From the NCBI GenBank assembly GCA_019239875.1, contig JAFAZI010000151.1:1-64000 (forward strand): 64,000 nucleotides of DNA. Direction: 5' to 3'. This DNA comes from Frankiaceae bacterium. Lineage in GTDB: Bacteria; Actinomycetota; Actinomycetes; JAFAQI01. A program made the position numbers and the translations under genes. Position 1 is the first letter of the stretch. Every line of letters begins with the position of its first letter. Below the pieces are notes generated by a model. The model worked only from the letters and a program-made list of their open reading frames with translations, was not told where the DNA came from and did not search any database. Positions 25,194-42,101 of the stretch are shown in pieces.

Positions 25194-28100
25194 ATGACGC
25201 ACTCCACACCTGCTGACACCACCGTCGTCGACAAGGTTCGGTCGCGGCGCCGCAGGACACGCATCGCCGTGATCAGCGGTGCCTTGACGGCCGCCGGACT
25301 CGGTGGGGTCTTCGGCCTCGCATCGTCGGCGTCCGCGTCGGGCCTTTCGTGCTCGATCTACTGGACGGGCGCGACGAGCAACGCCTGGAGCGCGTTGGGC
25401 AACTGGTCGTTCACCGACGGCGGTGCAGCGGCCAGCCGTATCCCGAACGCCACTGACTACGTCTGCATGTCCACGGCGCCTACCAGATCGAGCGCAACCC
25501 TTGGCGCCAACTCCACCATCGTGGGGATCAACTGGCCGCAGAGCGGCTCGGTCAACCCGAGCCTCACGGTCAGCGCTGGCACGCTCACCCTCGGCACCGC
25601 GACCACGCAGACGGCGAGCACGATCTACAGCCTGGACGACAAGAGCACCGTCACACCGATCTCGGGCGAGACCCTCGCGATCCAGAACTTCACCTTCGAG
25701 GGAATCCTCGGTGGCCCTGGTGTGACGACGGTGGCCGGAAGCACCACCACTACCAGCGCCGCCAACGGCATCCTCGGCATCTCGGGGCTTCCGGCGAAGA
25801 AGGCGCATCTGATCACGCAGGGCGCTACGACGTTCGCGAACCAGAGCTCCTACGTGTACTTCTACGGGGGCTCGACCTGGGAGAACGCTGGAACGGTCAC
25901 CCTCAATGACTTCTCGGACATGTACAACGCGGACTCCACCGACGCGAACCAGTTCACCAACGACCCAGGCGCGTCGCTGAACTACACCGCCGCGACAGCA
26001 GACGACTATGCAACGGTCGACGTTGCGGTCTACAACAACGGTGCGGTGAACCTGGGCGCCCACTCGCCGTTGTACTTCGGCCAGAACAACAATGCGACGC
26101 AGACCGACACCGGCAGCTTCACCGTCGGGGCGAACTCGACCCTGTTTCTGCCGAACACCCGCCATGAGAACTCCGGCACATCGTTCGGCGGCGCGGGAAC
26201 CGTGGACGTGACGGGCACCGACACCTTCACCTCCTCGGGCGTGACGGTCAGCCCTGGCAAGTTCCAGTTCGAGGGGACCGTCATCGTTTCCTCGGGACAG
26301 ATGCTGACGCTCGCGAACATGACATCGAACGGTGGCACGCTGCAGGGTCCCGGTGGCGTCACGGTGACCGGCGGAGCGTCGGTCAACACGATGTGGCTCA
26401 ACTACAACGGCACCGCGGCGACCAAGCTAGCGCTCGTGACCAAGGGCACAACTACCTTCACGGGCAGCACCGCCACTTACCTCTACGGCGGGTCGACCTG
26501 GGAGAACCAGGGCACGATCAATCTCGCTGACGGTGGCGGCATCTACAACGAGGACTCCGTCGACGCCAACGCGTTCACCAACGATTCGGGCGCCACGGTG
26601 AGCTACACGGCAATGACCGCCGACACCCAGGTCCACCTCGACCTGGCCGCCTTCAACAACGGTTCGGTGACGCTCGGCGCGCACTCGCCGATGTCCTTCG
26701 GGGGCGGCAACAACGCGACGCAGACCGACAGCGGCACCTTCACGGTCGGCGCGAACTCGACGCTTTTCCTCCCGGGCACCCGCCACGAGAACACCGGCAC
26801 GTCATTCGGTGGTGCAGGAACCGTGAACGTGCAGGGCACGGACACCATCACCGCGTCGAGCGTGACGATCAGCCCCGGGACCTTCCAGGTCGACGGCACC
26901 CTGGTGAGCGCGAGTGGGCAGACCACCACGTTGGCCAACCTCACGTCGACCGGGGGCAGCCTGCAGGGTCCCGGTGGCGTGACGGTCACCGGCCCAGCGT
27001 CGATCGGCGGGCTGTACCTGAACTACAACGGCACCGCTGCCACCAAGGTGCCGTTCATCACTAAGGGCACCACCACCTACACCAGCAGCGCCTATGTGTA
27101 CTTCTACGGCGGGTCGACCTGGGAGAACCAGGGCACGATCAACCTCACCGACAGCGGCGGCATGTCCAACCAGGACGCCCTCGATGCCAATCAGTTCACC
27201 AACGACTCCGGCGCAGTGCTGCAGTACACCGCCGCAACCGCGGACACGTCGGCCTATGTCGGCGTCGCAGCGTTCAACAACGGCGCTGTGAGCCTCGGCG
27301 CGCACTCGCCGATGTACTTCGGTGACAACAACAGCGCCACGCAGACCGACACGGGAAGCTTCACGGTGGGGGCGAACTCGACGCTCTACATGCCCAACAT
27401 GCGCCAGGAGGGCTCTGGCGCGTCGTTCGGCGGCGCCGGCACCGTGGACGTGACGGGCACCCAGACAATCACGGCGTCAAACGTGACGGTGAACCCAGGT
27501 AAGTACCAGCTCGACGGCACCCTCGTGGTCCCGTTGAACACGACGGCCACTCTTGGCAACCTCACGACCAACGGTGCGTACCTCGAGGGCCCTGGCACCG
27601 TCTCAGTAGCTGGTAACGCGACCATCAACGGGCTGTACCTCGACCCGAGCGCTGCCGCCGGCAAGAAGGCGCACCTGATCACGAACGGCACCACTGGGTT
27701 CGGCGGCAGCAACTATGTGTACTTCTACGGCGGTTCGACGTGGGAGAACGCCGGCACGGTCAACCTCGCAACTGGTGGCGGCGCGTCGAACCAGGACGGT
27801 TTGACGACCAACCTCTTCACCAACGATCTCGGGGCGACGGTCGCCTACAACGGCGCGACGGCCACCTCTGAGTCGGACCTGTACGTCAAGACGACCAACA
27901 ACGGCACGATCACCTCGACCAAGGGCGTCCTCGGCATTCAGACCCTGACGAACGAGACTGCTGGCGGCGTGCTCTCCGGTACCGGCACCTACAACGCCAA
28001 CGGCACGATCGGGTTCCCGGTGGCGCTCGTCAACAACGCCGCCACGGTCAACATTGGCCCGAGCGGCGTCGTCGGCACCTACGGCAACAGCAACACGAGC

Positions 28101-30611
28101 ACGATCGGCGGGATGACCACCAACTCCGGGACCTTCTCGGTCAACCGCACGCTGTCGATTCCCAAGAACTACGCGAACTCCGGCACGATCAACGTGAACG
28201 GCGTGACCCTCACCGTGACCACCCTCACGCAGACGGCGGGTACGACGACGGTCACCACCGGCGGCACCCTGCAGGGCGGCTCGCTCGGCAACGGCGCGAT
28301 CACGATCAACGGCGGCACCCTGACCGGCAACGGCTCGATCGCCGGACAGGTGTCGGGCACCGGCACGATCTCGCCAGGCCGTTCCGCGGGTCCGCTGAGC
28401 ATCGCCGCGAACTACAGCCCGGGTGCTTCCGGCACCCTCGCGATCGGCATCTCCGGTCCGTCGCAGGTGGGCACCGACTTCGGCAAGCTCGCCGTCACCG
28501 GGACCGCCACCCTCAACGGGACGCTGGCGATCCAGACGCAATCCGGCTACACGCCGCCGCTCGGGACGACGTACACGATCCTGACCGGCGGCACCGTGAA
28601 CGGCACCTTCTCGTCGATCACCGGCGCGAACCTGGCGGACCGCCAGTACCGGGCGACGTACAACGCCGGTTCTGTGGTGCTCACCGTGGTTCAGCCGCCG
28701 GCGATCACCAGCAACGCGTCGACCACGTTCACGGCGGGTAGCGCCGGGTCGTTCGGCGTGACCACCACCGGTTACCCGGCTCCAGCCCTGAGCATCGGTG
28801 GTGCGACGCTGCCGAGCGGCGTCACCTTCGTCGACAACGGCAACGGGACCGCAACGCTGTCCGGGACGCCGGCGACCGGTTCGGGTGGCACCTACCCGTT
28901 CACGATCACCGCGAACAACACCGTCAACCCGAACGCGACGCAGAACTTCACCCTCACGGTGAACGAAGCAGCGGCGGTGACGAGCAACTCGTCGACCACC
29001 TTCACCACGGGCAGCGCTGGAACGTTCAGCGTGACGACGCGGGGCTTCCCGAAGCCATCGCTGAGCAACGGTGGGGCGACGCTGCCGAGTGGCGTGACGT
29101 TCACGGACAACGGCAACGGGACGGCCACGCTGTCCGGTACGCCGGCGGCGGGGACGGGCGGCACGTACCCGATGACGATCACAGCCCACAACGGCATCGG
29201 GTCGGACGACGCGCAGAGCTACACCTTGACGGTGAACCAGCCGGCGGCAGTCACGAGCGCCTCGTCGACCACCTTCAAGGTCGGCACGGCCGGCTCGTTC
29301 GGCGTCACGTCGACCGGCTTCCCGAAGCCGGGGCTGTCGATCGGTGGGGCGACCCTGCCGAGTGGTGTGACGTTCGTCGACAACGGCAACGGGACGGCGA
29401 CGTTGTCCGGTACGCCGGCAGCGGGCACGGGCGGGACCTACCCGTTCACCGTGACCGCGCACAACGGGGTCGGCTCCGACGGGACGCAGAACTTCACCCT
29501 GACGGTGGACCCAGGCGTCACAGTCGCATCGATCTCGCCGAACGCGGCGGGGCAGGGTGCGCACCCGACCGTGACGATCACCGGGACCGGCTTCCAGAGC
29601 GGTGCGACGGTGGCGGCCTCCGGCACGGGCGTGACGTTCAGCTCGGTGTCCGTCACTGACTCCCAGCACCTGACGGCGTCGATGACGGTGGGCACGGCGG
29701 CGGCGACCGGGACGCGCAACATCACGGTGACGACGTCGACCGGGTCGGGTAGCTGCACCGGGTGCTTGACGGTGAACCCGAAGCCGACGGTGACGTCGAT
29801 GGCGCCGTCCGCGATCGGGCAGAACGCGACCGGCGTACCGGTGACGATCAGCGGCACCAACTTCGTGAGCGGTGCCAAGATCAGCTTCACCGGCGGTGCG
29901 GGCGTGACCGGGACGGTCACCAGCGTGTCAGCGACGAGCATCTCGGCGAAGGTCACGGTCAAGTCGACCGCTCCGACCGGTAGCTACACGCTGCGTGTCA
30001 CCAACCCGGACGGTGGCGCCGCCGCCTGCGCCGGCTGCCTCACCGTGAACGCGGCACCGGCCGTGACCAACCTGAGCCCGTCATCGCTGGAGCAGGGGGC
30101 GACGGGCGTGGCTGGCACCATCACCGGTTCTGGTTTCGCCAACGGCATCAAGGCCGCCTTCAGCGGACCGGGCACCGGGGTGACCGGGACTGTGAACACG
30201 GTCAGTGGCACCTCGATCGGCCTGACGCTGAAGGTCGGCGCCACGACGACACCGGGTTCCTACAAGATGACGCTGACGAACACCGACGGCGGGCGCTACA
30301 TCTGCACCAACTGCCTGACGGTCTCGGCCGGGCCGGCGATCACCAGCATCACGCCGAACTCAGCCACTCGTGGTCAGAGCAACCTGGCGTTCACCGTGAA
30401 CGGCAACCGGTTCAGCTCCGATGCGACGCTGAAGGGCCCGGCTGGCGTCACGTTCACCAACGTTGTCGTGAACGGGGCGGGCACGCAGATCACGGCCACG
30501 ATGTCTGTCACCGCAGGGGCGCCGACCGGGAGCAACAAGCCGGTGACCGTCACCAACGGGCCGATCGGCGGCTACGGCGTTGGGGTGCTCAACGGTCTGA
30601 CGATCAGCTGA
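25194..30611 (+). CDS. Giant (1805 aa) secreted repeat protein: beta-helix/autotransporter-type repeats, putative-Ig repeats and IPT/TIG-like domains
   Basis: Signal peptide RRTRIAVISGALTAAGLGGVFGLASSASA; WTGATSNAWSALGNWS; repeated Y.YFYGGSTWEN...; GGATLPSGVTF.DNGNGTATLSGTPA x3; ITPNSATRGQSNLAFTVNG. Confidence 0.92.
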   Translation: MTHSTPADTTVVDKVRSRRRRTRIAVISGALTAAGLGGVFGLASSASASGLSCSIYWTGATSNAWSALGNWSFTDGGAAASRIPNATDYVCMSTAPTRSSATLGANSTIVGINWPQSGSVNPSLTVSAGTLTLGTATTQTASTIYSLDDKSTVTPISGETLAIQNFTFEGILGGPGVTTVAGSTTTTSAANGILGISGLPAKKAHLITQGATTFANQSSYVYFYGGSTWENAGTVTLNDFSDMYNADSTDANQFTNDPGASLNYTAATADDYATVDVAVYNNGAVNLGAHSPLYFGQNNNATQTDTGSFTVGANSTLFLPNTRHENSGTSFGGAGTVDVTGTDTFTSSGVTVSPGKFQFEGTVIVSSGQMLTLANMTSNGGTLQGPGGVTVTGGASVNTMWLNYNGTAATKLALVTKGTTTFTGSTATYLYGGSTWENQGTINLADGGGIYNEDSVDANAFTNDSGATVSYTAMTADTQVHLDLAAFNNGSVTLGAHSPMSFGGGNNATQTDSGTFTVGANSTLFLPGTRHENTGTSFGGAGTVNVQGTDTITASSVTISPGTFQVDGTLVSASGQTTTLANLTSTGGSLQGPGGVTVTGPASIGGLYLNYNGTAATKVPFITKGTTTYTSSAYVYFYGGSTWENQGTINLTDSGGMSNQDALDANQFTNDSGAVLQYTAATADTSAYVGVAAFNNGAVSLGAHSPMYFGDNNSATQTDTGSFTVGANSTLYMPNMRQEGSGASFGGAGTVDVTGTQTITASNVTVNPGKYQLDGTLVVPLNTTATLGNLTTNGAYLEGPGTVSVAGNATINGLYLDPSAAAGKKAHLITNGTTGFGGSNYVYFYGGSTWENAGTVNLATGGGASNQDGLTTNLFTNDLGATVAYNGATATSESDLYVKTTNNGTITSTKGVLGIQTLTNETAGGVLSGTGTYNANGTIGFPVALVNNAATVNIGPSGVVGTYGNSNTSTIGGMTTNSGTFSVNRTLSIPKNYANSGTINVNGVTLTVTTLTQTAGTTTVTTGGTLQGGSLGNGAITINGGTLTGNGSIAGQVSGTGTISPGRSAGPLSIAANYSPGASGTLAIGISGPSQVGTDFGKLAVTGTATLNGTLAIQTQSGYTPPLGTTYTILTGGTVNGTFSSITGANLADRQYRATYNAGSVVLTVVQPPAITSNASTTFTAGSAGSFGVTTTGYPAPALSIGGATLPSGVTFVDNGNGTATLSGTPATGSGGTYPFTITANNTVNPNATQNFTLTVNEAAAVTSNSSTTFTTGSAGTFSVTTRGFPKPSLSNGGATLPSGVTFTDNGNGTATLSGTPAAGTGGTYPMTITAHNGIGSDDAQSYTLTVNQPAAVTSASSTTFKVGTAGSFGVTSTGFPKPGLSIGGATLPSGVTFVDNGNGTATLSGTPAAGTGGTYPFTVTAHNGVGSDGTQNFTLTVDPGVTVASISPNAAGQGAHPTVTITGTGFQSGATVAASGTGVTFSSVSVTDSQHLTASMTVGTAAATGTRNITVTTSTGSGSCTGCLTVNPKPTVTSMAPSAIGQNATGVPVTISGTNFVSGAKISFTGGAGVTGTVTSVSATSISAKVTVKSTAPTGSYTLRVTNPDGGAAACAGCLTVNAAPAVTNLSPSSLEQGATGVAGTITGSGFANGIKAAFSGPGTGVTGTVNTVSGTSIGLTLKVGATTTPGSYKMTLTNTDGGRYICTNCLTVSAGPAITSITPNSATRGQSNLAFTVNGNRFSSDATLKGPAGVTFTNVVVNGAGTQITATMSVTAGAPTGSNKPVTVTNGPIGGYGVGVLNGLTIS
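25851..27890 (+). repeat. Tandem coding repeats, exact 621-bp (207-codon) period
   Basis: YVYFYGGSTWEN-type unit starts at 25851, 26472, 27093 and 27714 (spacing 621, 621, 621); fourth unit partial. Confidence 0.9.
28701..29519 (+). repeat. Three tandem putative-Ig repeats, exact 273-bp (91-codon) period
   Basis: A[IV]TS..STTF starts at 28701, 28974, 29247. Confidence 0.9.
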
Positions 30612-32512: not shown

Positions 32513-33910
32513 ATGCCGGAGATCGACACGGACTACCTCGTCGTCGGGGCCGGCGCGTCCGGCTTGCCGTTCGTCGACACACTCGTATCTCTCACCGACG
32601 CCCGAGTGGTGATCGTCGACCGCGAGGCTCGGCCTGGTGGGCACTGGCTGCACGCGTACCCGTTCGTCCGGCTGCATCAGCCTTCGGCGAACTACGGGGT
32701 GGCGTCCCGACCACTCGGTACGGATCGCATCGACACGGACGGGCCGAACGCCGGCTTCTACGAACGGGCGTCGGCCCCGGAGATCGTCGAGCACTTCGGG
32801 GCTGCCCTCGATGACCTCGTCGCGTCCGGACGCGTGACGTTCCTCGGCTCGCACGAGTACCGCGGAGCGGATGCGGACGGCCACCATGTCCAGTCGCTGG
32901 AGACCGGCGAGACCACGACGATCCGGGCTCGTCGGCTGGTCGACGCGACCTTTACGGCGGCGGACATCCCCTCGCGTCACACGCCGCCGATGGCCGTGGA
33001 CGACGACGTACGGTTCGCTTCCCCGAATGCGCTTCCCGATCACGTCGACGCGCCCGCCTTCACGATCCTTGGCGCGGGGAAGACGGCGATGGACAGCTGC
33101 GTGTGGTTGCTCGAGCAGGGCATCGACCCTGGCCGGATCCGCTGGGTCAAGCCGCGCGAGGCCTGGCTTTTCGAACGCTCCTTCGTGCAGCCGCTCGACC
33201 AGGTCGCGGGATACATGCAGATGCAGGCGCACTGGGTGTCGGCATCAGCGCGCTCGACGGACGGCCGAGACTTCGCTCGCCGCCTGGGGGACGTGGGAGT
33301 GCTGGTTCGGGTCGATGAGGATGTCGAGGGCGAGGTGTTTCGCGGCGCCATCATCAGCCAGTACGAGCTTGACCGCCTGCGCACCATCGAGAACGTTGTG
33401 CGCGGACGTCGGGTCCACCGGATCACGAGCACGCATCTGGTGCTCGATGACGGCGAGATCTCCGCAGTCCCCGGTGAGGTGCACGTCGACTGCACGGCGC
33501 ATGGCGTGCCGTACGCCCCGACAAGGCCAACCTTCGCCGAGGACCGCATCACGATCGGGTACGTGACCCTCGGCATCGTCCCGTGGTCGGCGGCGACGGT
33601 CGCGGCGGTGGAAGCGATCCATGTGTCCGATGACGAGAAGAACCGGTTGACCCCGGCGATGTGCTGGACCGGCAGTACGGCGGACGTGATCGGCATGCTC
33701 CACGCGGGCATGAGCGGGCTCAGCGCTCGTGCCGCCGACCCCGCCGTCGGCGCCTGGAACGAGACCTGCCGGCTGAACCCCGCAGCGGGTGCCATGGCGA
33801 AGGCCGGCTCGGACACGGCGATCGGCGATGCGCTGACCACGATCATCACCGAGATCGGCCCGGCCCTCGAGAACCTCCAGCGCCTGGCGGGCCAACCCGC
33901 TAGTTCGTGA
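32513..33910 (+). CDS. FAD/NAD(P)-binding monooxygenase-like protein
   Basis: DYLVVGAGASGLPFVDTLVSL...EARPGGHWLHAYPFVRLHQPSANYGV; second nucleotide-binding FTILGAGKTAMDS. Confidence 0.85.
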   Translation: MPEIDTDYLVVGAGASGLPFVDTLVSLTDARVVIVDREARPGGHWLHAYPFVRLHQPSANYGVASRPLGTDRIDTDGPNAGFYERASAPEIVEHFGAALDDLVASGRVTFLGSHEYRGADADGHHVQSLETGETTTIRARRLVDATFTAADIPSRHTPPMAVDDDVRFASPNALPDHVDAPAFTILGAGKTAMDSCVWLLEQGIDPGRIRWVKPREAWLFERSFVQPLDQVAGYMQMQAHWVSASARSTDGRDFARRLGDVGVLVRVDEDVEGEVFRGAIISQYELDRLRTIENVVRGRRVHRITSTHLVLDDGEISAVPGEVHVDCTAHGVPYAPTRPTFAEDRITIGYVTLGIVPWSAATVAAVEAIHVSDDEKNRLTPAMCWTGSTADVIGMLHAGMSGLSARAADPAVGAWNETCRLNPAAGAMAKAGSDTAIGDALTTIITEIGPALENLQRLAGQPASS

Positions 33911-35240
33911 CGGCAAATACCGTCCAGGCGCCCGGGACACCCTTGAGGTCGTGGTCGCCCCTGGACTCGAAACGATGACGGGACCCCGCGACGAGGTCCA
34001 CCACGGTGCGAGAGACGAGCACCTCGTTGGGTTGCGCGAGTGAAGCGATTCGGCTCGCGATGTGCACGCCCACCCCGGCGATGTCGCGATCGATCAACTC
34101 GATCTCCCCGGTGTGCAGTCCCGCGCGGATCGAAAGACCGAGCTGTCGGGCGGCGTCGCGGATGGCGCACCCGCAGTCGATGGCGCGTGCCGGACCGTCG
34201 AAGCGCGCCAGGACGCCGTCTCCCGTCGACTTCACGCGATCACCGCGAAAGCGCTCGAGCTGGCGATCCACCATGTCGTCGTGGCGCCGCAGCACGTCGC
34301 GCCAACGCTCGTCGCCCAATGCGACAACGCGGTCTGTCGAGGCGACGATGTCCGTGAGGAGCACGGTTGCGAGCACCCGTTCGGCTCGCGGCGCACCTCG
34401 GCTACCCGCGACGTGCTGTTCGATCAGTCGTAGCGTCGCTTCGGTGTTCCCGATCCAGTACAGGTGGTCGGCGCCCTCGAGCTCGATGAGCTCCGCGTCC
34501 GGTATGTGTGCAGCGACCTGTCGTCCGAAGTGCACCGGCACGTAGGTGTTGCCCACGTGATGAAGCACGAGGGTTGGCACGCTGATGGTTGCCAGGGCTG
34601 GCCGGACGTCGACTCGACCGAGCACCAGCTGCATCGCCCGAGCGGCGCCGGGGCTCACTGAGAGCCGCTCGAGCCTCCCGAGCTGGAATCGGAACTCCTT
34701 GTTCTTCTGCTCGCTGGGGGCGACCAGCGTGACCCAATTGGCGTTGCCGGACCCCCAGAAGTCGGCAAACCTGCCGAGCAGGTCGTCGAGAAACCCGCGC
34801 TCCCATCCCTCGTAGTCCTCGTCCTCCTCCAGGCGCGCATAGGAGTCGATCAGGATCAACCCGCTGCAGCGCTCCGGATGCGTCGCGGCGAGAACAGAAG
34901 CGATCAGGCCGCCATCGCCATGGCCGATGATGACGGCGGCGCGAGAACCCGCCGCGTCAAGAACGTCAACCGCGTCTCGCATCCAGCCTTCGAGGGTGGT
35001 CAGGTCGTCCAGCGGTGCCGGGTCCGAAACCCCGACCCCACGGACGTCGAACGTGATGAGCCGGGCGAAGCGTGAGAGGTGATCCAAGAAGCTCGCAACG
35101 AGTGGGTCTTCCCACTGCCACTCCAGGTTGCTCCACCACCAGGGGATGAACATCAGGTCCACTGGCCCGTCGCCGACAACCTGGTACGCGACGTGCGCTC
35201 CTTGCTCGGTTTCGACGTACCTGGTGCGCGGCGCCTGCAT
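33900..35240 (-). CDS. Alpha/beta-hydrolase domain fused to class III adenylate/guanylate cyclase domain
   Basis: N-term VAYQVVGDGPVDLMFIPWWWSNLEWQWEDP...; C-term TVLLTDIVASTDRVVALGDERWRDVLRRHD...KSTGDGVLARFDGPARAIDCG. Confidence 0.92.
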   Translation of the reverse strand: MQAPRTRYVETEQGAHVAYQVVGDGPVDLMFIPWWWSNLEWQWEDPLVASFLDHLSRFARLITFDVRGVGVSDPAPLDDLTTLEGWMRDAVDVLDAAGSRAAVIIGHGDGGLIASVLAATHPERCSGLILIDSYARLEEDEDYEGWERGFLDDLLGRFADFWGSGNANWVTLVAPSEQKNKEFRFQLGRLERLSVSPGAARAMQLVLGRVDVRPALATISVPTLVLHHVGNTYVPVHFGRQVAAHIPDAELIELEGADHLYWIGNTEATLRLIEQHVAGSRGAPRAERVLATVLLTDIVASTDRVVALGDERWRDVLRRHDDMVDRQLERFRGDRVKSTGDGVLARFDGPARAIDCGCAIRDAARQLGLSIRAGLHTGEIELIDRDIAGVGVHIASRIASLAQPNEVLVSRTVVDLVAGSRHRFESRGDHDLKGVPGAWTVFAVTN

Positions 35241-35293: not shown

Positions 35294-38263
35294 TCAGGTG
35301 GACACGTCCCACCGGCGATCGCCGGCGTACCGGCACCGCACTCCCGTGACGACCTCGTGCGACAGGTGCGCGGCGAGGTCGGGGAGCACGGCGTCGATGC
35401 GTTGGACCGCGTCGCGGATCCGCGCGGTGACGGCCTTGCGGGCTCGCTCGGTCGTGGAGCTGCCGAGCGGCCGCGGTCGACCCGCGAGGCCGCTGCTGCG
35501 GCCCAGCTCGGCGGCCAGCACGGCGGTCTCGTCGTCGACGGCGGCGACTCGCTCCGCGTCCCCGGCGCGCTCGGCCGACGCCCGCTCCGCGGCGAGCTCC
35601 TCGAGCCGTCGGCGGTAGCCCTGCGCAGCCGTGCGGTCGAGCGCCGGACCCGCGTCGGGGGCGACGGCGCCTGCCTGCATCAGGTCGAGCACATGCACGT
35701 CCTCGCGCGGCCGGCGCAGCAGCTCCGCGAGGTCGAGCAGGCCCTTGCAGTGCGGCACGGTCGCCGTACGGCCCTCCCAGGTCACCCGCCACGCAGCACC
35801 CTCACGGTGGAGGGACGTCGGAGCCCGGCGAGGGGCGGCGCCGACGCGCGCCTCCACCTGCTGGGCCTCCGCCAGAAGTGCGGCGGCGTCCGGATCGCCG
35901 AGCGCGGCTGCGAGCTCCGCAGCGACCCTCGAGTGGCAGCCGGCGAACGCCACCGCGGCACCGTTCACCCCGCACGTCCCTCGCAGCGGCCGCACGTCGC
36001 TCAGCAGCTGCTGCATGAGCGGCGCGTCGTCGAGCGCGATCGCGGCGGTGGCGAGCTCGCGCACGAAGACCGACCAGAGGTAGGACCGGTCGGACCGCCA
36101 GGTGCCGAGCTCCTGCACGACCGACACGTGGTGCCGCGCCGCCTCGAGGTCGGCCGCCCGCGCCTGGAAGCCCGCGGCCACCGCGTGCGCGTGCACTGGT
36201 GCGCCGGTCCAGTGCGCGACCGCCTCGGCCGCGAAGGACTGGAGCTCCGCGGGGTCGCTGCGCGCGCGGACCAGCTCGAGCCGCTGGGACATTCGGACGT
36301 TCGCGGTGTCCGGCTCGCGCAGGCGGCCGCCGAGCGCGGTGGCCTCGTCGATGAGCCGCTCGGCGTCTGCCAGCTCGCCGCGGAGCAGGGCCAGGCAGGC
36401 CCGGCGTGTGAGGGCCGTGTAAGCGTGCCGCGGCTCATCGAGGCCGGCGAGCACGGTGAGCGCTTCGTGGAGCACGGCGGAGAACGCGGCGCTGCCGCTC
36501 TCGAGGAGGGCGTTCGCCTGCAGCACGAGGGCCTCGGCGAGCCAGTCCGGGCTGCCACAGCGGCGGGCGAGGGCGATGAGCTCGTCGATCACCGGCACCC
36601 GTTGGGCCCCGCCGCCCGGTGACCACAGCACGTCGTGTCGCGCGAGCAGGCAGGCCCGCAGGACGGTGGGGTCGTCGCAGCCGCGCGCTAGTGCGATCGC
36701 CTGCTCGGTCAGCGGTTCGCTGCGAGAGCGCTGCTCCGGCACCGAATGGGCCAGCTCTCGTGCCAGCACCGCCGTCAGGTGTGCCGTCAAGTCGGGGTAC
36801 GACGGCCCCACCGCCGTCAGTGCGCTCTCCAGCTCCTCAACCAGCTCGTCGCGTCGCGCCGCGAAGCGGGCACCCAGCGACGCTGCGGCCAGGGCTGCAC
36901 CGGCGATCCGCACGCCGTCGGCGGCGCGGTCCGCCGCGTCGCGTGCGGCCCGCACGAGCCCGCGCGCATCGGGCAGCCGACCCGTGCGGGCCAGCAGGTC
37001 TGCTTCGTACAGCAGAACGTCGCACAGCGGTCCGTCGGGGAGCACCAGCCCGGCCTCGGCGACAGCGCCGCGCAGCATCCGTAGGTGGGCGGCAGCCTCC
37101 TCGAGCGCCAGGGCTCGCCGGTCGTCGTCGGCCGCGCGCATCGACCAGCGCACCGCGTCGGCGAGGTCAGCAGCGGGCAGGGCGAGGCGGAGGTGACGGG
37201 CGACCTCGGCCGCCGCGACCTCACCCCCGCGGTCGGCTCTGCCCGCGAGCGCCTCGGCGACCGCGGCGTGCAGGGCAGGCCCGACGGGTCTCTGCTCGAC
37301 GACGGCCTCGCGGAAGACGTCATGCGCGAACCGCACCCCCTCGCCCCGCTGCAGGAGGGCGGTCCGCATTCCCTCGTCGACCGCGCGGTCCACGAGGCCG
37401 CGGTCACCATGGACGGCGGTGAGGACGTCGACGAGCAGGGTGTTTCCGATGACCGCTGCCGTGGTCAGCACCTGCTGCGTGCCAGGGGTCAGCGCCTCGA
37501 AGCGCTGGGCGGCTGCGTGCCGCACGGCCGCTGGCAGCGCGCCGTGGTGGTCAGCGAGGGCGAGCTCACGGGTGAAGAGCGGGTGACCGCCGCCACGCGC
37601 GTGAACCCGCTCCACCAGCTCGTCGCCGGCGTCCGGCACGACGGACCGGACCAGCTGCGCCACCGCGTCCCGGTCGAGCCCCGGCAGCACCAGGTGCTCA
37701 CCGAGCGAGGTGGCGCGGTCCAGTGCCGGGGTGGCCTCCTCGGACCGGAAGGCCCCGAGCAGGGCCACCGGTGCCCGGCGGGGCCGGGACACCAGTTCCT
37801 CGAGCAGCGCCAGCGACGACGCGTCCGCCCACTGCAGGTCGTCGAGCACGAGGACGATCGGCTGCAGCTCGGCCAGGGCCTCAAGCCAGGCGACGGTGGC
37901 GTCCTGGAGCAGCAGCCGGTCGCGGTCGGTCTGCGTGCCCTCGTGGGCCTCGCCGAGCAGCGGCACAAGGGCTGCCAGCAGTCCGCGGTCGGTCCCCGCG
38001 GCGGCGCGGGCGGCCTCCAGCCCGACGCCGCGCACCAGCCCGGTCAGCGCCTGCGTCCAGGGCCAGTAGCCGGACGCGCCACTGGCCACGCAGGTGCCCC
38101 ACCCGAGCGTGCCGGCGGCGTCTTGGACGGCGGCGCGCAGCAGCGCCGTCTTGCCCATCCCGCTCTCGCCGCGCACGAAGGCACTGCCGGCGGGCAGCGC
38201 CGTGCGCAGCTGGCGGAGGGCGTCCCCCCGCCCGAACAGCTCCACAGGCCGATCCTGCCCCAT
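35294..38263 (-). CDS. STAND/AAA-type ATPase, LuxR-like large regulator without recognisable LuxR HTH; C-terminal winged-helix-like plus coiled-coil module
   Basis: Walker A RGESGMGKTALLRAAV; Walker B PIVLVLDDLQWADASSLALLEEL; C-term TVPHCKGLLDLAELLRRPREDVHVLDL...ERARKAVTARIRDAVQRIDAVLPDLAAHL; start trimmed from ORF 35294..39091. Confidence 0.85.
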   Translation of the reverse strand: MGQDRPVELFGRGDALRQLRTALPAGSAFVRGESGMGKTALLRAAVQDAAGTLGWGTCVASGASGYWPWTQALTGLVRGVGLEAARAAAGTDRGLLAALVPLLGEAHEGTQTDRDRLLLQDATVAWLEALAELQPIVLVLDDLQWADASSLALLEELVSRPRRAPVALLGAFRSEEATPALDRATSLGEHLVLPGLDRDAVAQLVRSVVPDAGDELVERVHARGGGHPLFTRELALADHHGALPAAVRHAAAQRFEALTPGTQQVLTTAAVIGNTLLVDVLTAVHGDRGLVDRAVDEGMRTALLQRGEGVRFAHDVFREAVVEQRPVGPALHAAVAEALAGRADRGGEVAAAEVARHLRLALPAADLADAVRWSMRAADDDRRALALEEAAAHLRMLRGAVAEAGLVLPDGPLCDVLLYEADLLARTGRLPDARGLVRAARDAADRAADGVRIAGAALAAASLGARFAARRDELVEELESALTAVGPSYPDLTAHLTAVLARELAHSVPEQRSRSEPLTEQAIALARGCDDPTVLRACLLARHDVLWSPGGGAQRVPVIDELIALARRCGSPDWLAEALVLQANALLESGSAAFSAVLHEALTVLAGLDEPRHAYTALTRRACLALLRGELADAERLIDEATALGGRLREPDTANVRMSQRLELVRARSDPAELQSFAAEAVAHWTGAPVHAHAVAAGFQARAADLEAARHHVSVVQELGTWRSDRSYLWSVFVRELATAAIALDDAPLMQQLLSDVRPLRGTCGVNGAAVAFAGCHSRVAAELAAALGDPDAAALLAEAQQVEARVGAAPRRAPTSLHREGAAWRVTWEGRTATVPHCKGLLDLAELLRRPREDVHVLDLMQAGAVAPDAGPALDRTAAQGYRRRLEELAAERASAERAGDAERVAAVDDETAVLAAELGRSSGLAGRPRPLGSSTTERARKAVTARIRDAVQRIDAVLPDLAAHLSHEVVTGVRCRYAGDRRWDVST

Positions 38264-38276
38264 CCAGGCCGGCGAG

Positions 38277-38299
38277 GCGTCTGGCGATCCGCTAGACGC
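38277..38299. promoter_or_regulatory. 23-bp palindromic operator candidate GCGTCTgGCGatcCGCtAGACGC
   Basis: GCGTCT-n-GCG-nnn-CGC-n-AGACGC, perfect dyad, in the 105-bp divergent intergenic region. Confidence 0.7.
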
Positions 38300-38368
38300 G
38301 ATCTGCCGCCGCCGGCTCGCAACCTGGCGCCTGTTGGACGACAGCCAGCCCTGACTCGAGGAGAACCG

Positions 38369-39226
38369 ATGACCGCCACGTTCGACCCCGTCCAGTTCAA
38401 GACGACGACCCGTGCCCAGTGGGAGGACGCGGCCGAGGCCTGGCACCGCTGGGGGCCGGCCATCGAGACGTGGACGGGCGAGGCCACCAAGGCCATGCTG
38501 GACGCAGCCGGCGTGACCACCGGGTCCAGCGTCCTCGACGTCGCTGCCGGTGCCGGCGGCCAGTCGCTGATTGCTGCCCGGCGGGTGGGTCCGAACGGGC
38601 GGGTCGTCGCCACTGACATCTCGCCGAGCATCCTCACCTTCGCGGCCAAGCAGGCGGCCGAGGAAGGGATCACCTGCCTCGAGACCGTCGAGGCCGACGG
38701 CGAGCAGCAGCAGGACACCGGTCTGCGGGGGCTCGACGCGGCCATCAGCCGCCTCGGGCTGATCTACTTCCCCGACCAGGTCGGTGCGCTGCGTGGTATC
38801 CGCGCGACCCTGCGACGCGGTGGCAGGTTCGCGACCATCGTCTACTCGACGCCGGACCGCAACGGCTTCTTCTCCGTCCCGGTCGGGATCATCCGCAAGG
38901 CAGCCGGCCTGCCTGCGCCCGGACCGGGCCTGCCCGGTCCGTTCAGCATGGGCGCTCCCGGCGTCGCCGAGCAGAAGTTCGCCGACGCGGGCTACTCGGA
39001 CATCCATGTGACGGCGATCGACTCGCCGGTCCGGATGGCGAGCGCGGCCGAGTGCCTGCGCTTCGAGAAGGAGTCCTTCGGCGCCCTGCACCAGATGCTC
39101 AGCGGCCTTGCTCCCGAGGAGCGCGAGGCTGCGTGGGCGGAGGTGGCCGAGGCGCTGACGCAGTTCGAGACCGCGGCCGGCTTCGTCGGGCCATGCGAGC
39201 TGCTGGTCGTCAGCGGCGCAGCGTGA
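38369..39226 (+). CDS. Class I SAM-dependent methyltransferase
   Basis: GSSVLDVAAGAGGQSLIAARRVGPNGRVVATDISPSIL; gaggag RBS before ATG 38369. Confidence 0.92.
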   Translation: MTATFDPVQFKTTTRAQWEDAAEAWHRWGPAIETWTGEATKAMLDAAGVTTGSSVLDVAAGAGGQSLIAARRVGPNGRVVATDISPSILTFAAKQAAEEGITCLETVEADGEQQQDTGLRGLDAAISRLGLIYFPDQVGALRGIRATLRRGGRFATIVYSTPDRNGFFSVPVGIIRKAAGLPAPGPGLPGPFSMGAPGVAEQKFADAGYSDIHVTAIDSPVRMASAAECLRFEKESFGALHQMLSGLAPEEREAAWAEVAEALTQFETAAGFVGPCELLVVSGAA

Positions 39227-39425: not shown

Positions 39426-39818
39426 CTAGGGGTATCGGCACACGATCCGTATGGATGTGCGTCGGTCCGCGCGGACACGCACGTGCTTGTCCGGGCACTG
39501 CATCGGAGCCGTGCGTCGGAGGCTTGAGGAGGGGATGAACCAATAGCCGCCATGGGGAAGAAGAACACGAAATCGGCCGTCCTTATGGACGCGAACGGCC
39601 TCCACGAAGTGTCCGTGCCGACGGATCTTCACCCACCCTTTCGCTGGGGATGGCACCTGGCCACCAGGTCCCGACGGTCCGGTGGTCTGCATAAGCCGTC
39701 CATGGACAGTGCCGTAGGACCTGGACCCGTTGGCGGCGTTTACCGCCTGCGCCGGTACGAGCGTGCATAGAACCGCGCATGTCGCGAGTGTCATCGCCTG
39801 GCTCGCAGAGGTGCGCAT
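39426..39818 (-). CDS. Small secreted protein of unknown function
   Basis: Signal peptide MRTSASQAMTLATCAVLCTLVPAQAVNA; SYGTVHGRLMQ...GWVKIRRHGHFVEAVRVHKDGRFRVLLPHGGYWF. Confidence 0.6.
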   Translation of the reverse strand: MRTSASQAMTLATCAVLCTLVPAQAVNAANGSRSYGTVHGRLMQTTGPSGPGGQVPSPAKGWVKIRRHGHFVEAVRVHKDGRFRVLLPHGGYWFIPSSSLRRTAPMQCPDKHVRVRADRRTSIRIVCRYP

Positions 39819-39880
39819 GACTATCTCCCCTTCGGCTCGGGTGACCGGTACCTCGTCATCCTCGTCGATCTCACCTCTAA

Positions 39881-39886
39881 TACGGT
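39881..39886 (+). promoter_or_regulatory. Putative -10 box, leaderless nucS
   Basis: TACGGT + 6 nt + GTG 39893. Confidence 0.55.
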
Positions 39887-39892
39887 GCGACC

Positions 39893-40552
39893 GTGCGTCT
39901 GGTGATAGCTCGTTGCTCCGTCGACTACTCCGGCAGGCTGCAGGCGCACCTTCCGATGGCGACCCGCCTGTTGATGGTCAAGGCTGACGGGTCGGTCCTC
40001 GTGCACTCGGACGCTGGCGGCTACAAGCCGCTGATGTGGATGACGCCGCCGTGCACGGTGAAGCAGGAGCCCCAGCAGTGGACGGTGGTCAACAAGGGCG
40101 AGGAGAAGCTCGTGATCACCATCGACGAGGTGCTGTCCGACGTGTCGCACGACCTCGGTGTCGACCCGGGCCTGCAGAAGGACGGCGTCGAGGCGCACCT
40201 TCAGGTCCTGCTCGCGGAGAACTGCGGCGTACTCGGTGAAGGTCTGACCTTGATCCGGCGCGAGTACCCGACTGACATCGGGCCGGTCGACCTGCTGTGC
40301 AAGGACGCCGCCGGACAGTCGGTTGCGGTCGAGATCAAGCGGCGCGGTGAGATCGACGGCGTCGAGCAGTTGACGAGATATCTCGAGCGACTCGATCGGG
40401 ACCCGTTGCTTCGTCCGGTCCGTGGCGTCTTCGCGGCACAGGAGATCAAGCCGCAGGCCAAGGTGCTCGCCGCGGCGCGCGGCATCGAGTGCGTGGTCGT
40501 CGACTACGACGTGCTGCGCGGGATCGACAACAAGGACGACCGGCTGTTCTGA
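39893..40552 (+). CDS. nucS: Mismatch-specific endonuclease NucS (EndoMS)
   Basis: [50 protein letters not shown]...[43 protein letters not shown]-terminal DDRLF. Confidence 0.95.
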
Positions 40553-40556
40553 GCCG

Positions 40557-42101
40557 TCAGGTGTTGGCGGGATAACGCGAGTACGACGGGAAGTTGCCGT
40601 ACAGCTCCTCGTCGGCATCGCCGACCGTCACCGCCTGCACCAGCAGATCGCCACCCACGAAGGCGCCCTTCCATGAGGCGCCCTTGCCGCCGAAGACCTC
40701 TTCGCGGTCGCCCCGACTTCGCGGCTTGTTGATGCCGACTTTGAAGGCCTGCAGCTGCTCGGCGACCCGCGCGCCGAAGTCCTCGTTGTCGGTGGCGACG
40801 GAGGCAACAAGCGCGCCGTTGGAGGCGTTCATGCCGGCCAGTAGCTCGTTCTCCGTGTCGACGATCACCACGCTGTCGATCGGTCCGAACGGCTCGGCGT
40901 GATGCAGCGCCCAGTTGCTCGGCGGTGCGAGGACAGCCGACGGCGCGACGTAGGCGGACGTGTCCTGACCGTCGAGGAAGCGGCCGTCGGAGACTTCACC
41001 GCGATAGAGCGGGATCGCGCCACCCGCAACCGCCGCCTCGTAGTGGCTGACGAGCTCGTCGGCTTTCGAGGCGTGAATGACAGGACCGAAATCCAGGTCC
41101 GGGAACGGGTCGAAGCTGGTCTCGACCGCGAGCGGATGCCCGAACTTCAGCGACTGCACGACCGGCAGGTACATCTCGAGGAACTCGGGGAAGAGCTCAC
41201 GCTGCACCACATACCTCGGATATGCCGTGCACCGCTGCTTCGCATACTCGAAGCCCTTCTTCAGATGCTTCGCGAGGTCCTCCCACCCCGAGAAGTCCCA
41301 GATGCCCCAGGTGTTGAGACCCTCCTGCTCGAGGAAGTGGCGCTTGCCGGTGTCGGCGAGCGTGGTGGCGGCCTTGCGTCCGTTGGCGCGACCACCCACG
41401 AACGCGAGCGCGCCGATCTCCGGCGTACTGATCAGGGCATCTCCGAGGGCGCCACCAACACCCGACACCAGCGTCACGGGCAGACCGTGGCGGCGCATGA
41501 TCGCGTGCGCCAACGTCAACGTGTGGAAGCCGCCCTGGCTCGGCGTCTTCGCCACGACCGCGTTTCCCGCGAGCGCCTGCACGAGCTCCGCGTGCACCTG
41601 CACACTCATCGGGTAGTTCCAGCTCGCGATGTTGCTGACCGGCCCGGGCAGCGGAGTGCGATCACCGATCTGGCGCTCGATCTCCTGCAAGTACCACTCG
41701 ACTCCATCGAGCGCCCGGTCGACATCGGCGCACGCAAGCCGCCAGGGCTTTCCGATCTCCCACACCAGCAGCAAGGCAAGGGTGTCCCGATGCTTGCGCA
41801 TCTCATCCACGGCCGCCTTGACCAGCGACTTGCGCTCATCGAGGTCGACGGTGCCCCAGGTCTTGTGCTCGTGCGCCGCAAGGTTGACCGCGTCGGCGGC
41901 CTGCTGCGGTGAGATACGCGGTGGGCCCTGGATCGCGGTGGCGTCCACCGGTGACACGTGATCGCCCGGGTCCCCGACCCGCTGCCACTCGCCGCCGATC
42001 AGGTTGAGGATGCGGTCGGCATCGAACGCCTCAGGAGCGATCGACCGCGCGCGGTCGTAGGCATCCGACCAGGACGTGCCCGGCTTGAGGGTGAGGGTCA
42101 T
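40557..42101 (-). CDS. Aldehyde dehydrogenase-family protein, PaaN-like (phenylacetate degradation)
   Basis: MTLTLKPGTSWSDAYDRARSIAPEAFDADRILNLIGGEW...FEYAKQRCTAYPRYVVQRELFPEF; start trimmed from ORF 40557..42851. Confidence 0.8.
   Translation of the reverse strand: MTLTLKPGTSWSDAYDRARSIAPEAFDADRILNLIGGEWQRVGDPGDHVSPVDATAIQGPPRISPQQAADAVNLAAHEHKTWGTVDLDERKSLVKAAVDEMRKHRDTLALLLVWEIGKPWRLACADVDRALDGVEWYLQEIERQIGDRTPLPGPVSNIASWNYPMSVQVHAELVQALAGNAVVAKTPSQGGFHTLTLAHAIMRRHGLPVTLVSGVGGALGDALISTPEIGALAFVGGRANGRKAATTLADTGKRHFLEQEGLNTWGIWDFSGWEDLAKHLKKGFEYAKQRCTAYPRYVVQRELFPEFLEMYLPVVQSLKFGHPLAVETSFDPFPDLDFGPVIHASKADELVSHYEAAVAGGAIPLYRGEVSDGRFLDGQDTSAYVAPSAVLAPPSNWALHHAEPFGPIDSVVIVDTENELLAGMNASNGALVASVATDNEDFGARVAEQLQAFKVGINKPRSRGDREEVFGGKGASWKGAFVGGDLLVQAVTVGDADEELYGNFPSYSRYPANT

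Follow-up and report, generated by a model that had tools for sequence, protein, structure and literature searches.

In a Frankiaceae genome we find a STAND-type ATPase gene and a class I SAM methyltransferase gene that diverge from a short intergenic region, are conserved as a pair among relatives, and share a putative operator with fixed spacing that has no other credible copy in the genome and is missing, together with the ATPase, from a relative that keeps the methyltransferase. We consider it reasonably probable that this locus is a dedicated two-gene switch, in which the STAND-ATPase would bind the direct-repeat operator and control the methyltransferase gene as well as its own. The arrangement is ordinary in outline (a divergent regulator and its target), real and conserved. 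Two parts of it are unusual: the layout of the operator and an unnamed domain at the C-terminus of the ATPase. Literature searches found no description of the ATPase–methyltransferase pair or of that domain.

The locus lies in a stretch of 64,000 nucleotides (hereafter the window). The ATPase, a putative regulator of 989 aa, is encoded on the minus strand at 35294..38263 (ORF and translation, Pfam, and orthologues) with its ATG at 38263. The methyltransferase (285 aa, Methyltransf_25/UbiE-like; ORF, Pfam, and predicted fold) occupies 38369..39226 on the plus strand, and its ATG at 38369 is preceded by a Shine-Dalgarno region, GAGGAG, recognized from the sequence at 38357..38364 (plus strand). 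With both start codons located, the divergent ORFs and the 105-bp gap between them are as an earlier note on this DNA had claimed, and its description of a 989-aa minus-strand product and a plus-strand class I methyltransferase agrees with the ORF calls and Pfam. The methyltransferase matches Methyltransf_25 (E 1e-14), has the Rossmann SAM-binding fold and motif I, and yields a predicted structure with a pLDDT of 95. Its closest folds are the small-molecule methyltransferases TmtA/GtmA, OxaG, and RebM; it resembles these UbiE/Methyltransf_25 enzymes in fold and SAM motifs, but at just 15%–23% identity. To judge from the model, it probably acts on a small molecule.

Protein searches of related genomes and genome contigs returned eight loci with a close relative of the ATPase: our own, G001, G045, G024, G063 (Geodermatophilus obscurus), G064 (a Frankiaceae MAG; same contig as G068), G065 (Geodermatophilus chilensis), and G366. 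The ATPase relatives are 49%–63% identical, apart from G366, where a contig end cuts the ATPase and identity is 39% over the N-terminal part. Rather than being seldom adjacent with an unconserved palindrome, the outcome that the earlier note had set against its proposal, the two genes are divergent neighbors in 8/8 loci (methyltransferase orthologues at 64%–78% identity), and the motif between them is conserved and tracks the ATPase. More distant ATPases, at ~33% identity and below, have other gene contexts. Six methyltransferase-only relatives lack both the ATPase neighbor and the operator arrangement. One of them is G328, whose methyltransferase is 87% identical to that of G065 and is nested within the clade of paired loci, without ATPase and without operator. 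Two changes are required to place the pair label on the methyltransferase tree, which we read as a single gain and, in G328, a single loss. By the evidence of these sequences, G328 lost the ATPase and the operator together, and the operator goes with the ATPase.

An inverted repeat does lie at 38277..38299, where the earlier note had reported one, and it reads GCGTCTGGCG-ATC-CGCTAGACGC. It is not the perfect palindrome, symmetrical at all arm positions, that had been described: the 10-nt arms around the 3-nt center pair at 9/10 positions (90% complementary), the exception being a g/t mismatch at arm position 7. The exact site matches only itself in the window. Comparable inverted repeats number 90 in the window versus 47–83 (mean 60) in 20 Markov-1 simulations, and an equally good 8+1+8 palindrome arises in 332/500 shuffles of the intergenic region itself. 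Because repeats of such quality are common both in the window and in the simulations, the isolated palindrome is not above chance, and this one site alone proves nothing. What is above chance is the conservation of motif and spacing between orthologous pairs.

The eight intergenic regions, anchored on the third site, align without gaps from the palindrome to that site, save for a one-base aligner shift in G366. They share a gap-free 60-bp block of fixed layout: the palindrome TCTGGCGAnTCGCCAGA, CTKSCG at 22 bp, and TCTGGCGCC at 43 bp after the first CTGGCG. In our sequence the conserved palindrome core, comprising site 1 and the right arm, is TCTGGCGATCCGCTAGA (38280..38296; neither strand assigned); half-site 2 is the degenerate CTGCCG (38303..38308, plus strand), 22 bp after site 1; and half-site 3 is CTGGCGCC (38324..38331, plus strand), exactly 43 bp after site 1 and identical at each position in 7/8 or 8/8 loci. 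The word CTGGCG recurs three times, and once inverted, within the operator, and sites 2 and 3 each consist of one direct half-site and are not palindromic. Mean information over the eight loci is ~1.0–1.2 bits in the sites versus 0.26–0.58 in spacers and flanks; the three half-sites form the conservation peaks, the highest being at the isolated half-site 3. The spacing of one 6-mer pair is preserved in 6/8 loci against a maximum of 3 in 2,000 shuffle sets, a comparison that treats the loci as independent and is therefore an indication, not an exact probability. From these alignments the putative operator probably consists of repeated protein-binding sites in a conserved cluster. The earlier note's regulator–target module with an operator thus stands as to the divergent pair and the shared conserved motif, whereas its palindrome is imperfect and only part of the operator.

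The operator appears to serve this locus only. Allowing up to two mismatches, the genome contains four other sites, all inside open coding frames, and matches overall (27) are barely above the control (19); among the sites examined at this threshold we found no second credible copy. Across 395 genomes the composite pattern recurs at this locus in G024 and is otherwise at background level. A wider regulon was rejected on these grounds.

The ATPase has a Walker A motif (GESGMGKT) and a Walker B region (VLVLDDLQWAD), both kept in the orthologues, and matches AAA_16 (E 4e-20) as well as AAA_22 in Pfam. As expected of a LAL protein, the AAA/STAND ATPase with its two Walker motifs is N-terminal, and in size, ATPase type, and long helical middle region the protein is like the LAL/MalT family of LuxR-type large ATPases. 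Unlike them, it is missing the LuxR/GerE helix-turn-helix: Pfam gives no GerE match in the full ATPase or in 18 C-terminal domains, so a LuxR helix-turn-helix was rejected and the label LuxR-like, used in the earlier note, gives way to AAA_16/AAA_22. The N-terminal OmpR and BTA domains of SARP/AfsR-type regulators were not detected either, as the AAA domain stands at the very start of the protein and Pfam returns no Trans_reg_C or BTAD match.

The candidate DNA-binding domain is the C-terminal one (about aa 815–989; 35297..35820, minus strand), proposed from predicted fold and profile comparison. It recurs in many actinobacterial ATPases. Our own genome encodes several further, distant AAA_16 ATPases (G000:C173:9392-12430 and others), and the C173 protein carries the same domain. 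No Pfam model covers it and no PDB sequence match is convincing; comparison with Trans_reg_C and the Pfam DNA-binding families gave no match with or without its insertion, and nothing useful came from profile searches of Pfam and the PDB once the inserted hairpin had been removed. AlphaFold2 predicts (pLDDT 87) the order b-b-b-a-a, a two-helix hairpin insert, a long basic helix, and a terminal b-hairpin, which fits the OmpR/PhoB winged helix (N-terminal sheet, a1-a2-a3, terminal b-hairpin). In a Foldseek search of the PDB, eight of the 11 best matches are OmpR/SARP-type (BaeR, AfsR, PhoB, YycF, SaeR, EmbR, and PhoP), none being significant (best E only 0.12). Comparison by hhalign with 13 OmpR-type domains of the same genome, insert removed, gives a colinear alignment with P 0.003 and a probability of only 10%. 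The model is suggestive, though no proof, of an OmpR/SARP-like winged helix that carries a helical hairpin as an insert. Whether this amounts to a new family of DNA-binding domains, built as an OmpR-like winged helix that a helical-hairpin insertion interrupts, we regard as close to evenly balanced, leaning slightly against. The domain is likely the cognate DNA-binding part, and therefore the factor that the earlier note had left without a name may not be a third party.

PimR and AfsR are NTPase-containing regulators whose target sites are direct repeats within promoter regions (PMC5930380, PMC10936776), and because they bind direct repeats, the operator described here fits an OmpR-like domain. 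The counterparts of PimR are reported to have three direct heptamer-like repeats between regulator and target genes, and PimR itself uses a SARP DNA-binding domain on repeats 11 bp apart (PMC5930380). Our locus is like PimR and other SARP-LAL regulators of Streptomyces in combining a large NTPase-type regulator with repeats in the regulator–target intergenic region. It differs in that the repeats are 21–22 bp apart, wider than the SARP 11 bp, that one repeat lies within a palindrome, and that the sole candidate for DNA binding is an unnamed domain at the C-terminus. AfsR (SARP-NOD-TPR) places a STAND-type NTPase and an OmpR-type DNA-binding domain on direct repeats, and ATP relieves its inhibition (PMC10936776). 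The likeness extends to the STAND-type NTPase and, as a predicted candidate here, the OmpR-type domain on direct repeats, but the domain order is reversed and a SARP/BTA domain was not detected.

We propose that the ATPase is a STAND-type one-component regulator, in which an AAA_16 NTPase at the N-terminus is followed by a long sensor region in the middle and a winged-helix-like domain at the C-terminus. Several protomers of the ATPase itself would bind the operator, each on one CTGGCG half-site, the half-sites being spaced ~two helical turns apart. It would most likely act as an ATP- and ligand-dependent activator of the methyltransferase gene, and would also control its own gene, which starts ~14–45 bp from the palindrome. 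The substrate of the methyltransferase might perhaps be the molecule that the ATPase senses.

A separate transcription factor whose gene lies elsewhere, such as a GntR-, TetR-, or MarR-type dimer, could bind the palindrome and control both genes, with the ATPase as a signaling partner or coregulated enzyme. Site 1 does resemble the operator of a dimeric repressor, and the ATPase is without a recognized DNA-binding domain. However, sites 2 and 3 are not palindromic, such a factor would serve a single locus because the genome has no other credible copy of the operator, and the operator is lost along with the ATPase; we think this reading rather unlikely. It is decidedly improbable that the pair is conserved but the intergenic conservation reflects only core elements of two promoters. 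A GGGTGA-like stretch is conserved ~12 bp beyond site 3; this and the location ~40–60 bp ahead of the methyltransferase start would suit parts of a promoter. A word found three times and once inverted is, however, unlike known -35/-10 pairs, and relatives with the methyltransferase alone do not have the conserved arrangement. An RNA hairpin, as a 5' leader element or bidirectional terminator, is very improbable: our copy would form a 10-bp stem with one G-U pair, but stem-breaking changes in other loci are uncompensated, covariation is no better than in shuffles, Rfam gives no match, and conservation is highest at the isolated third half-site. It was disfavored for its want of covariation and of an Rfam match.

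If the C-terminal domain of the preferred switch is indeed a new DNA-binding family, the large and widespread group of actinobacterial STAND ATPases now named only "ATP-binding protein" would become direct regulators of transcription, and the methyltransferase pair would be the first example of such ATPases with a defined operator. In many actinobacterial genomes there are several large STAND ATPases that carry this domain and have been assigned no output. A pair with one target and a short, well-defined, and conserved operator offers a simple test case for these ATPases as regulators, for the target of the domain, and for the signal of the NTPase.

Several features around the locus deserve mention. 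A LipJ-like alpha/beta-hydrolase fused to an adenylate cyclase (33900–35240, minus strand) follows immediately downstream of the ATPase, is encoded on the same strand, and is separated from it by 53 bp; it matches the NCBIfam LipJ model with E 8e-126, yet falls under the model cut-off. Neither it nor other window neighbors are conserved at the relatives' loci checked, and a larger conserved cluster including it was rejected, as it is absent from those loci. At 25194–30611 (plus strand), a 1,805-aa ORF with a signal-peptide-like N-terminus, many imperfect Gly/Thr/Ser-rich repeats, and no Pfam match looks, from its sequence, like a giant secreted repeat protein. Beyond the methyltransferase, two ORFs (130 and 265 aa; 39426–40618, minus strand) have no Pfam or NCBIfam matches. 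Among the relatives, the ATPase gene of G. chilensis (L071 / L069) contains one in-frame TGA, which may mean that it has recently become a pseudogene or that the assembly is in error. In G038, whose locus has the methyltransferase only, a small DUF1059 gene sits just upstream of it, and a similar C-terminal sequence occupies the same place in G061 (L039 about 1318–1473; L077 upstream of 2376), the DUF1059 gene being a possible alternative partner of the methyltransferase.
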